This document shows positions 30,989 to 33,593 of a stretch of DNA of 48,892 nt, piece by piece. The position numbers and the translations under genes are program-made. This DNA comes from an uncultured Gemmiger sp. (lineage in GTDB: Bacteria > Bacillota > Clostridia > Oscillospirales > Ruminococcaceae), in the NCBI GenBank assembly GCA_944388105.1, contig CALXHN010000009.1:1-48892 (forward strand). Direction: 5' to 3'. The notes below the pieces were generated by a model. It searched no databases. It saw only the letters and a list, made by a program, of their open reading frames with translations, and was not told the origin of the DNA. Each line of letters starts with the position of its first letter. The stretch's first letter is position 1.

Positions 30989-31017
30989 TTGAAAAATTCG
31001 CCAAAACGTGGTATAAT
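30989..31017 (+). promoter_or_regulatory. Sigma-A promoter of yebC
   Basis: TTGAAA (30989-30994), a 17-base spacer and TATAAT (31012-31017) with an extended TGG before it. This is among the strongest promoters in the window. Confidence 0.85.
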
Positions 31018-31096: not shown

Positions 31097-31831
31097 ATGT
31101 CCGGACATAGCAAATGGAACAACATCAAACGCAAGAAGGAAAAGACCGACGGCGCCCGCGCCAAGGTGTTCACCAAGATCGGCCGCGAAATCAGCGTTGC
31201 CGTTAAGGAAGGCGGCGCCGATCCGGCTTCCAACGGCAAGCTGGCCGCCCTGATCTCCAAGGCCAAGGCCAACAACGTGCCCAACGACAACATCCAGCGC
31301 ATCATCAAGCGCGCCGAGGGCGGCGACAAGACCGAGTATGAAGCCATGACCTATGAGGGCTACGGCCCCGGCGGCATCGCCGTTATGGTGGATACCCTCA
31401 CCGACAACCGCAACCGCACCGCGGCCAACATGCGCCATTACTTCGACAAGTTCGGCGGCAACCTGGGCCAGATGGGCTGTGTGGGCTTCCTGTTCAGCCA
31501 GAAGGGCGTCATCGTCGTGGACCTGGAAGACAAAGACCCCGACACCCTGATGATGGATGCTCTGGACGCCGGTGCCGATGACTTCGATGCCGGCGAAGAT
31601 GCCGCCGAAGTCACCACCACCCCCGAAGCCTTCACCGCCGTCTGCGACGCTCTGAAAGCCAAGGGTTACGAATTCATCTCCGCCGATGTGGCGCAGGTGC
31701 CTTCCACCTCCACCGCTCTGTCCGATGCCGACCAGCTGACCAACATGGGCAAGCTGCTGGACGCTCTGGAAGAGGACGACGACGTGCAGAACGTCTGGCA
31801 CAACCTGGAGAACGAGGACGACCTGCCCTGA
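31097..31831 (+). CDS. yebC: YebC/PmpR family protein (TACO1-like)
   Basis: The 244-residue protein matches the YebC family throughout: MSGHSKWNNIKRKKEKTD at the start, ANNVPNDNIQRIIKRA, YEGYGPGGIAVMVDTLTDNR, and an acidic third domain. Members were long annotated as transcription regulators, and newer work links them to translation of difficult sequences such as polyproline. It has a strong promoter and a GGGGG-containing site before ATG 31097. The PASTA protein follows after 18 bases and is probably cotranscribed. Confidence 0.95.
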   Translation: MSGHSKWNNIKRKKEKTDGARAKVFTKIGREISVAVKEGGADPASNGKLAALISKAKANNVPNDNIQRIIKRAEGGDKTEYEAMTYEGYGPGGIAVMVDTLTDNRNRTAANMRHYFDKFGGNLGQMGCVGFLFSQKGVIVVDLEDKDPDTLMMDALDAGADDFDAGEDAAEVTTTPEAFTAVCDALKAKGYEFISADVAQVPSTSTALSDADQLTNMGKLLDALEEDDDVQNVWHNLENEDDLP

Positions 31832-31849: not shown

Positions 31850-33535
31850 ATGACCAAGATTCTTTGCCCTTTCTGCCTGGAACCGCTGGAAGACGGATTT
31901 CACGGGGACTGTCCCCACTGCGGGCGCAGCCTGGAAAACCATAATCCGGAAGGTGCGCTGCCTCTGGGCACGCAGCTGGGCGAACGGTACACGGTAGGGG
32001 AGTACCTCAGCGCCGATGGCGACGGTCTGGCCTACCGCGGTGTGGAAAATGAGACCCGCCGTTTTGTGCTGATCAAAGAATACTTTCCCGTCACCCTCTG
32101 CAACGGGCGCAGCCCGGAAGGGGCCCTGATGCCCAAGGAAGGGCGCGAGGTCCTGTTCAAGACCAGCCGGATGGATTTTCAGGATCTGTATGTGGACCTG
32201 AAAAACCTGACCCCGGCCACCGGCCTGTCCCAGATCCTGGACGTGCTGGAAGAAAACAACACCGTTTACGCGGTGGAAGAAAATGAGAAAGGGATGACCC
32301 TGACCCATTATCTTTCCCTGCGCTCCCGGAACCTGACTCCCTCCGAGGCCCGCACCCTTCTGCAGCCGGTGATGGAAGGGGTCATCCAGCTGCACAAGGC
32401 GGGGCTCATCCATCGGGGCATCTGCCCGGACAACATCCTGCTGCCCATTGACGGTTCCGCCCGCCTCACCGGCTACGGCACCCTGGCCCTGCGCACCGGC
32501 GGCAGTGAGCTGAAAAGTCAGCTTTACGCCGGGTATGCAGCGCCGGAGCAGTACAGCGCGGCGGAGTTTTCCGGCCGCTACACCGATGTGTATGCCCTGG
32601 CGGCGGTGACCTACCGCCTGGTCACGGGGCAGACGCCGGTGGCGGCCCCCCAGCGCAAGGTGCGGGACAGCCTGGAAAGCGCCCACAGCCTGGAAAACGG
32701 GGTGCCCACCTACTTTGCCCAGGTGCTGGCCTGTGCCATGCGCCTGGATCCCGCCAAGCGGATGCAGACGGTGCCCGAACTCATGAGTGCCCTCACCGAC
32801 CCCAGCGTGGCCAATGCCATGTTTGAGCGGGGAGACAACCAGATCTCCACCAAGAAGATTCTGGGTGCCTCCATGGTGGTCATCTTTGTGCTGGCGGGGC
32901 TGCTTTTGTGGAGCCTGCTGGCCCCCAGGGGCTCGGAGGAGCAGACAGCCAAACCCACCCCCACACCGGCCTCTGCCGCAGGAGCGGGGGAGGCAAGCAG
33001 CAGTGACAGCAGCGACAACAGTGATCTGCTGATCGTGCCCGACCTGGTGGGCAAGAACTATGCCACCGAGATCAAGAACAGTGATCTGTATCAGAAATAC
33101 CGCGTTGTGATGACGGAGGACTACTCCTCCGAGGTGGAGGAAGGCTGTGTCATCAGCCAGGATCCTCTGGCCGGAACCCTGCAGACCGAGGAAACACCCA
33201 TCATCCAGATCGTGGTCAGCAAGGGCCCCAACCTGGTGGAGATGCCCAACATTGTGGGCTTCACCCAGGACAACGCCATCAAACTGCTGGACGCCAAGGG
33301 AATCCAGTACCGCATGGAGATCATGGCCAATGACGGCCAGTACGCCGCCGGCTGTGTGGCCAAATGTGAGCTGGACGGCCAGAACCTGGAGCCGGGACGC
33401 AAGCTGGATACCGGAAACGTCATCGTCACGGTGTATATCGCCGGGGAACGGGATGACAGTCCCACCGTGTCGGTGCAGCCGGCAGGGGACCCGGATGCGG
33501 CTTCCGCCGCACCGTCGCCCACACCCGCTGCCTGA
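31850..33535 (+). CDS. Zinc-ribbon, kinase-like membrane protein with two PASTA domains (predicted pseudokinase)
   Basis: The 561-residue protein has a zinc ribbon (CPFC and CPHC, residues about 6-25), a protein-kinase-like domain (about 45-315), one membrane helix (about 337-357), a Ser/Asp-rich linker and two PASTA repeats outside the membrane. It keeps the ATP-site lysine (K76 in VLIKEYFP), the PDN of the catalytic loop and YAAPEQYS. The catalytic HRD is HRG (188-190) and DFG is GYG (208-210), so both essential aspartates are glycine. It should sense muropeptides or cell-wall fragments but is unlikely to phosphorylate. ATG 31850 follows AAGGGGGA, and yebC lies just upstream. The domain layout is firm; lack of activity is an inference. 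Confidence 0.85.
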   Translation: MTKILCPFCLEPLEDGFHGDCPHCGRSLENHNPEGALPLGTQLGERYTVGEYLSADGDGLAYRGVENETRRFVLIKEYFPVTLCNGRSPEGALMPKEGREVLFKTSRMDFQDLYVDLKNLTPATGLSQILDVLEENNTVYAVEENEKGMTLTHYLSLRSRNLTPSEARTLLQPVMEGVIQLHKAGLIHRGICPDNILLPIDGSARLTGYGTLALRTGGSELKSQLYAGYAAPEQYSAAEFSGRYTDVYALAAVTYRLVTGQTPVAAPQRKVRDSLESAHSLENGVPTYFAQVLACAMRLDPAKRMQTVPELMSALTDPSVANAMFERGDNQISTKKILGASMVVIFVLAGLLLWSLLAPRGSEEQTAKPTPTPASAAGAGEASSSDSSDNSDLLIVPDLVGKNYATEIKNSDLYQKYRVVMTEDYSSEVEEGCVISQDPLAGTLQTEETPIIQIVVSKGPNLVEMPNIVGFTQDNAIKLLDAKGIQYRMEIMANDGQYAAGCVAKCELDGQNLEPGRKLDTGNVIVTVYIAGERDDSPTVSVQPAGDPDAASAAPSPTPAA

Positions 33536-33553
33536 CAGACCATCGGATATAAC

Positions 33554-33593
33554 AAAAACCCGCCGCGAAGCAGCTGCTTCGCGGCGGGTTTTT
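33554..33593. terminator. Bidirectional terminator between the PASTA gene and rpsR
   Basis: A 40-base perfect palindrome with five A at the left end and five T at the right (stem CCCGCCGCGAAGC). It serves both convergent transcripts. Confidence 0.92.

Follow-up and report, generated by a model that had tools for sequence, protein, structure and literature searches.

The gene considered here lies in a 48,892-nucleotide stretch of DNA (the window) from an uncultured species of the gut bacterium Gemmiger. It encodes a protein of 561 amino acids joining a zinc ribbon, a kinase-like domain, a membrane segment and PASTA repeats (Table 1). This layout had been proposed in an earlier note made from the sequence, and it is borne out by the cysteine motif, by hydropathy and by two Pfam models. 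The Pkinase model PF00069 matches residues 126-306 (2.8e-19; 70 bits, cut-off 31.7), and the PASTA model PF03793 matches two stretches (1.5e-11 for the whole protein). The N-lobe falls outside the PF00069 match, but the kinase domain of PpkA (5hnv_A) aligns over residues 35-314. PpkA, which we take to be from Serratia, provides the best match of solved structure (4.7e-23 with the single sequence, 1.1e-46 with profile A2); it keeps HRD and DFG in the alignment, and the solved fragment has no PASTA. The curated PknB_PASTA_kin model (NF033483) gives 138.7 bits, below its cut-off of 450. The position of the PASTA repeats relative to the membrane segment suggests that they are extracellular.

Table 1. 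Features of the pseudokinase locus (positions in the window)
Feature	Position	Strand	Basis
Promoter-like TTGAAA-17-TATAAT before yebC	30989..31017	+	consensus scan, 11/12 positions matched
yebC	31097..31831	+	18 bp upstream of the pseudokinase gene; probably same operon
PASTA receptor pseudokinase gene	31850..33535	+	ORF, 561 aa; profile matches and relatives
Zinc ribbon C6-C9-C21-C24 (CxxC...CPxC)	31865..31921	+	sequence; each Cys retained in 123-125/130 family rows
Pseudokinase domain, about residues 45-316	31982..32797	+	PF00069 and 5hnv_A alignment
Degenerate glycine loop SADGDG, residues 54-59	32009..32026	+	comparison with motif-intact relatives
Beta-3 lysine K76 (IKEYFP)	32075..32077	+	sequence and alignment
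HRG at the HRD site, residues 188-190	32411..32419	+	codons cat-cgg-ggc; alignment
GYG at the DFG site, residues 208-210	32471..32479	+	sequence; alignment
GYAAPEQYS, residues 228-236, APE/P+1 segment	32531..32557	+	conserved; E233 in 130/130 rows
Single transmembrane segment, about residues 335-361	32852..32932	+	hydropathy
PASTA repeat 1	33032..33223	+	PF03793, 2.2e-6
PASTA repeat 2	33236..33406	+	PF03793, 3.2e-4
Probable terminator downstream of the gene, a perfect inverted repeat with a following T run	33559..33593	.	sequence; terminator-like sites in scan

The upstream neighbour is a gene that we take, by resemblance, to be yebC. The short gap between the two genes, the promoter-like site before yebC, the terminator-like repeat after the second gene and the fact that no promoter-like or terminator-like site was called on the + strand between them make it probable that the pseudokinase gene is the second gene of a yebC operon. 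Four promoter-like sites were found in the scan against 1.1 expected in shuffles, and nine terminator-like sites were found in the region against 3.9 expected. The link to yebC claimed earlier is thus real at this locus but limited by lineage: within flanks of about 1.5-3 kb, some of them ended by contig ends, yebC was found near 29 of the 30 Gemmiger-labelled loci (L041-L070), 8 of the 11 loci L071-L081, and 26 of 129 loci of the family (L085-L213, direct search). Since the linkage holds in so few of the family loci, it says little about function, and yebC was rejected as a functional partner.

Pseudokinases lack at least one of the VAIK lysine, the HRD aspartate and the DFG aspartate, and two of these three are gone from the protein. 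The codons and the sequence agree with the earlier note in that HRD reads HRG and DFG reads GYG, with K76 and YAAPEQYS retained. Both replacements of aspartate by glycine are real, but that list of losses was incomplete, as the glycine loop has mostly disappeared and so has the alpha-C glutamate. Of the canonical catalytic and Mg/ATP residues, only K76, N195 and some of the glycine loop remain. These losses are defined against 28 zinc-ribbon relatives classed as motif-intact by their motifs and not by assay, all of which have both the HRD and the DFG aspartate. The HRD position is occupied by Gly or Ala in 127 of 129 pseudokinases of the Gemmiger family and in all 40 of a sister family. At the DFG position, Gly is found in 98 and Asp in 17 of 130 family rows, and Asp in 8 of the 40 sister-family rows.

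Relatives within the genus share these features. Matches of at least 60% identity to the pseudokinase occur in 34 of 35 same-genus genomes, its own included; the exception, G028, is a genome 86% complete, and the match in G009 covers residues 1-199 only. A scan of named genomes yielded 43 relatives, mostly from Gemmiger, with Fournierella, Anaerofilum and others. Glycine occupies both aspartate positions in all 43, and also in the 30 same-genus loci examined, the window's own counted. Close relatives with intact HRD and DFG were looked for among these and none was found, which supports reading the domain as a pseudokinase.

The gene is near-core in the GTDB family of Gemmiger, where 141 of 148 sampled genomes match at 1e-40, including 111 of 111 high-quality genomes. 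The best hits of 138 of these 141 genomes were compared (130, window included, plus eight, with G081, G158 and G166 left out), and none has the HRD aspartate: the site holds G in 120, A in eight, S in one and N in one of the 130 rows, and G in seven and H in one of the further eight. A sister family belonging to this order was sampled as well, and 70 of its 80 genomes match at 1e-80 (54 of 59 of high quality), leaving ten without a match at that cut-off, five of them high quality. The HRD site in 40 loci from these 70 matches holds G in 35 and A in five, with Asp in none, and Leu stands there in L231, from one genome belonging to a third family. Loss of the HRD aspartate therefore marks every examined member of two families, with the DFG aspartate persisting in a minority of each, and a recent loss confined to Gemmiger was rejected given the matches across both families. 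The retention of a dead kinase in two large related groups suggests a real role other than phosphorylation.

Most of these pseudokinases also carry PASTA repeats. They were detected in 127 of 129 family rows, in five of the eight further family rows, in all 23 members of profile A2 (by Pfam), and in each of the eight rows scanned from the sister and third families, in one of them barely. The five of 137 family rows without a PASTA match are L104 (423 aa), L132 (295 aa), L300 (252 aa), L301 (381 aa) and L303 (252 aa). The ORF of L301 (G037) stops at 381 aa within a long contig; the gene may be broken, or its product may be a form that lacks PASTA. Some variation was also seen at the APE-like motif: in place of AAPEQYS, the sister-family loci L267-L294 often have GFAAIEQYG or GYAAIEQYG, and some earlier loci have GCAALEQYE. 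This is a further change of the P+1 segment that is particular to the family.

The pseudokinase gene is under purifying selection. In ten pairs, dN/dS is 0.023-0.140 for the zinc ribbon and kinase part against 0.039-0.357 for the PASTA part (dS reaching 1.40-1.65 in two pairs with L061). The kinase part has the lower value in eight of the ten, the exceptions being W-L041 and L053-L060, where PASTA lies slightly below. Column information follows the same direction, with 1.98-2.13 bits in the kinase lobes versus 1.36-1.61 in PASTA. The anchors of the fold are nearly invariant among 130 family rows: the APE glutamate and the subdomain IX aspartate are present in all 130, and Arg 304 in 129.

Searches beyond the family covered sampled genomes at cut-offs of 1e-60 for the order, 1e-75 for the class and 1e-85 for the phylum, and these are strict enough that divergent members could escape detection. 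Matches were obtained in 48 of 197 genomes of the order, 21 of them in other families. HRD and DFG are intact in the best hits of all 21, which comprise seven PrkC-like proteins with PASTA and 14 kinases of the zinc-ribbon type, though in L312, one of the latter, the ribbon was not recognised. The class search (291 genomes) gave 17 matching genomes outside the order, with both aspartates in 16 of the best hits and a degenerate kinase, L259, as the seventeenth, and the phylum search (299 genomes) added three matches, all motif-intact.

The closest motif-intact relatives seen are Hanks kinases with a zinc ribbon and a KEYxP motif (among them L241-L258, L260, L262-L264, L306-L316), with stretches reading like AIKEYMP, HRDISPDNI, LLDFGAAR and GPWTDVYAL. 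They share the zinc ribbon, KEYxP, EQY and TDVY with the pseudokinase, but unlike it they retain GGFG, the alpha-C glutamate, HRD and DFG. With a profile of the zinc ribbon and kinase domain, those of these kinases that were scored reach 177-312 bits (86 for a single fragment), compared with 118 for the PrkC of the Gemmiger genome; part of this gap is expected, since the profile spans the zinc ribbon, which PrkC lacks. In a tree of 83 rows, 56 pseudokinase rows are separated from all others by a branch (support 100/99) that recurs in all 200 bootstrap trees, and the PrkC row sits among the intact kinases, the rows being hand-picked, PrkC being a single row on a long branch and the root not being fixed. 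The protein has the zinc ribbon, the KEYxP motif and, according to this one tree of unfixed root, a shared kinase-domain ancestry. In the comparison with PrkC/StkP and zinc-ribbon KEYFP kinases that had been advised, it groups with the zinc-ribbon KEYxP kinases and not with PrkC, and a decayed PrkC/StkP was rejected because its kinase domain both resembles and groups with the former. The simplest history would be that a zinc-ribbon kinase lineage bearing PASTA lost catalysis, rather than that a PrkC was broken.

Outer domains vary among the motif-intact relatives. Among ten that were scanned, one has PASTA, two have discoidin-like domains, one has a C-type lectin domain and one DUF5050, and the other five have no outer domain above its cut-off. 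The one with PASTA (L261, from genome G096 of the same family) combines intact kinase motifs and a zinc ribbon with four PASTA repeats and with repeats of the carboxypeptidase-regulatory-like kind, and its genome also carries the pseudokinase. With their DUF5050, discoidin-like and C-type lectin domains, the motif-intact zinc-ribbon kinases L243, L251, L254 and L262 look like a sensor-swapping family. A separate case is L259, from genome G623 in a different family of the class. This zinc-ribbon kinase is degenerate (HGNIC, LTDFAF), has no PASTA match, lies outside the supported pseudokinase clade and possibly reflects an independent catalytic loss.

A profile search of the Gemmiger genome, which is 94.3% complete, found two Pkinase matches, the pseudokinase and PrkC. 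The latter carries HRDVKPQN and DFG, and is the second, intact PASTA kinase that the earlier note had recommended looking for. A gene named phosphatase-like by resemblance adjoins prkC, in an order similar to rlmN-stp-prkC-rsgA (genes named by resemblance), and the genome also encodes an IreB-family protein. The pseudokinase gene has no linkage to prkC. PrkC-like matches occur in 35 of 35 genus genomes (assigned by us, the motifs having been read in the Gemmiger genome only), and because every genome has one, co-occurrence with the pseudokinase weighs little. No FHA-domain protein was found in a search of the genome, and an FHA-mediated read-out of the MviN/FhaA kind was rejected for that reason.

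Several known systems resemble the pseudokinase in part. PrkC, StkP and PknB (NF033483) have in common with it an inner kinase fold, one membrane segment and outer PASTA repeats, but the pseudokinase lacks the catalytic motifs, has an additional zinc ribbon and possesses a kinase domain that groups elsewhere, as judged with one PrkC row. CD2148 of Clostridioides difficile is likewise a second Hanks-type membrane protein beside PrkC without the catalytic Asp and Asn; it has no PASTA, and the likeness considered here is one of features. In the portions of two reports considered here (PMC9674922, PMC8262956), the catalytic residues of CD2148 are replaced (S134, S139), its autophosphorylation was not detected, and it was phosphorylated in vitro only with PrkC present. 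The same portions describe a more than fourfold rise of PrkC-dependent CwlA T405 phosphorylation in the CD2148 mutant. They also attribute 41 phosphoproteins to its control and note that PrkC phosphorylation sites were unchanged upon its addition in vitro; to the authors it is an atypical kinase, and they do not exclude pseudokinase status (PMC9674922, PMC8262956). It is therefore an imperfect precedent for the tuning of PrkC by a pseudokinase. In the mycobacterial case, as outlined in parts of a review (PMC12599244), the pseudokinase MviN (ActPs3) is phosphorylated by PknB and recruits FhaA. MviN is also membrane-linked and acts in wall-synthesis control (PMC12599244), but the Gemmiger protein has PASTA and no MviN part, and its genome yielded no FHA partner.

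The reading preferred here, held at a probability of roughly 0.55, is that of a PASTA receptor pseudokinase that acts by non-catalytic partner binding and most likely tunes the PrkC pathway or envelope signalling. Most weight is placed on a non-catalytic, wall-placed receptor because the genome encodes PrkC and IreB and in view of the CD2148 and MviN precedents. As a single-pass membrane receptor, the protein would expose two PASTA repeats whose expected ligand is peptidoglycan or lipid II, and this binding would position it at sites of wall synthesis. Inside the cell, the zinc ribbon and pseudokinase domain could form a protein-binding platform through the preserved C-lobe and the APE/P+1 surface, with PrkC, PrkC substrates or envelope proteins as candidate partners. 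The domain is presumed neither to catalyse phosphotransfer nor to bind ATP, and the ligand, the identity of the partner and the direction of the effect are likewise presumptive. The likeliest output would be tuning of the resident PrkC (IreK/StkP-type) pathway, either by pairing with PrkC or by presenting or withholding its substrates; this most likely route is modelled on CD2148, which appears to act so in C. difficile. A PrkC-type dimer cannot be assumed, as the domain lies outside the PrkC lineage, and the link to PrkC is put forward tentatively. A scaffold or a partner of PrkC, two of the roles raised in the earlier note, would each be compatible with these data. It is conceivable, though unlikely, that two clostridial families, including the one to which Gemmiger belongs, possess paired PASTA receptors, in which an active PrkC and a separately descended zinc-ribbon pseudokinase would share the same wall ligand and the latter would control PrkC output allosterically. 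The proposed analogue is HER2/HER3, a pair formed by an active and a pseudokinase receptor.

The pseudokinase might instead operate independently of PrkC, as a scaffold that is anchored at the wall and serves envelope or division proteins; in it, PASTA locates the protein and the pseudokinase domain recruits effectors. This is quite possible, if short of probable. The distinct kinase lineage, the lack of linkage to prkC and the better conservation of the pseudokinase lobes compared with PASTA all agree with it, and there is a published example in EssB/YukC, presented in the review excerpts as a transmembrane pseudokinase scaffold of Firmicutes (PMC12599244). That likeness is by description, and EssB/YukC, unlike the PASTA pseudokinase, is a component of type VII secretion. 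Against it, the neighbourhood indicates no client, and a conserved neighbouring client gene was rejected: the commonest clustered neighbour occurs at 19 of 129 loci, and YebC is itself restricted, as noted above.

Unusual enzymes, either a kinase working without the HRD aspartate or an AMPylating or glutamylating enzyme like SelO or SidJ, would be an improbable explanation. Escherichia coli YegI is reportedly a kinase without conserved motifs, in the wording of a paper title cited in PMC9674922. SelO and SidJ are degenerate kinase folds with enzyme activity according to parts of the review (PMC12599244), and both K76 and N195 are kept in Gemmiger within a strongly conserved domain. Against this, N195 is not maintained across the family, where 78 of 130 rows have Thr and 47 have Asn (30 of 40 sister-family rows have Thr). 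K76 is lysine in 42 of 43 near relatives, but at the beta-3 position 70 of the 130 family rows have Arg and 47 have Lys, and 38 of 40 sister-family rows have Arg. The scarcity of the DFG aspartate argues in the same sense, as does the alpha-C Glu 113, which is present in 28 of 28 intact rows and replaced by Leu in 106 of 129 family and 24 of 40 sister-family rows.

The same residues bear on an ATP-dependent allosteric switch, which the earlier note had listed and in which nucleotide would be bound without hydrolysis. K76 and N195 would suit such a switch, and parts of the review place ATP, by modelling rather than by measurement, in two degenerate families, DYD and DLHK, of which DYD has Arg in place of the beta-3 lysine (PMC12599244). 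The glycine loop points the other way: the Gly residues at positions 54 and 56 are mostly substituted relative to the 28 intact relatives, and position 58, which is the Phe of GGFG in 27 of those 28, carries an acid (Glu or Asp) in 122 of 129 family and 38 of 40 sister-family rows. Taken with the alpha-C glutamate and DFG aspartate, both mostly absent, and a beta-3 lysine often replaced by Arg, this pattern argues against Mg-ATP binding and makes the switch very improbable. Arg 215, uncommon among motif-intact rows, is found in 125 of 129 family and 33 of 40 sister-family rows, and the acid at 58, residue 76 and R215 may pair inside an empty pocket. A sequencing error or a decaying pseudogene can be considered refuted, since the ORF is intact, glycine recurs at both aspartate sites in every near relative checked, the HRD aspartate is missing across two families and dN/dS is low.

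A 2025 review recognises seven pseudokinase-rich bacterial families (ActPs1-3, GLW, CP1, DYD and DLHK), and its sections 4, 8 (with GLW), 10, 12, 13 and 14, compared by description, contain no family with PASTA and a zinc ribbon (PMC12599244). In its text, the word PASTA appears in the references alone and zinc is absent. Among the literature matches listed, no title or abstract opening describes a PASTA pseudokinase of this kind. If the preferred reading of a non-catalytic receptor is true, wall sensing could be transmitted without phosphotransfer, through a near-core receptor that lacks the catalytic aspartate in all examined members of two families and whose dead kinase domain nevertheless usually evolves more slowly than its PASTA sensor. 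PASTA proteins are familiar mainly as active wall-sensing kinases or as penicillin-binding proteins. The genome encodes two further PASTA proteins, at G000:C7:18915-19076 and G000:C18:6277-6633 (frames of 737 and 828 aa), which are perhaps penicillin-binding proteins.
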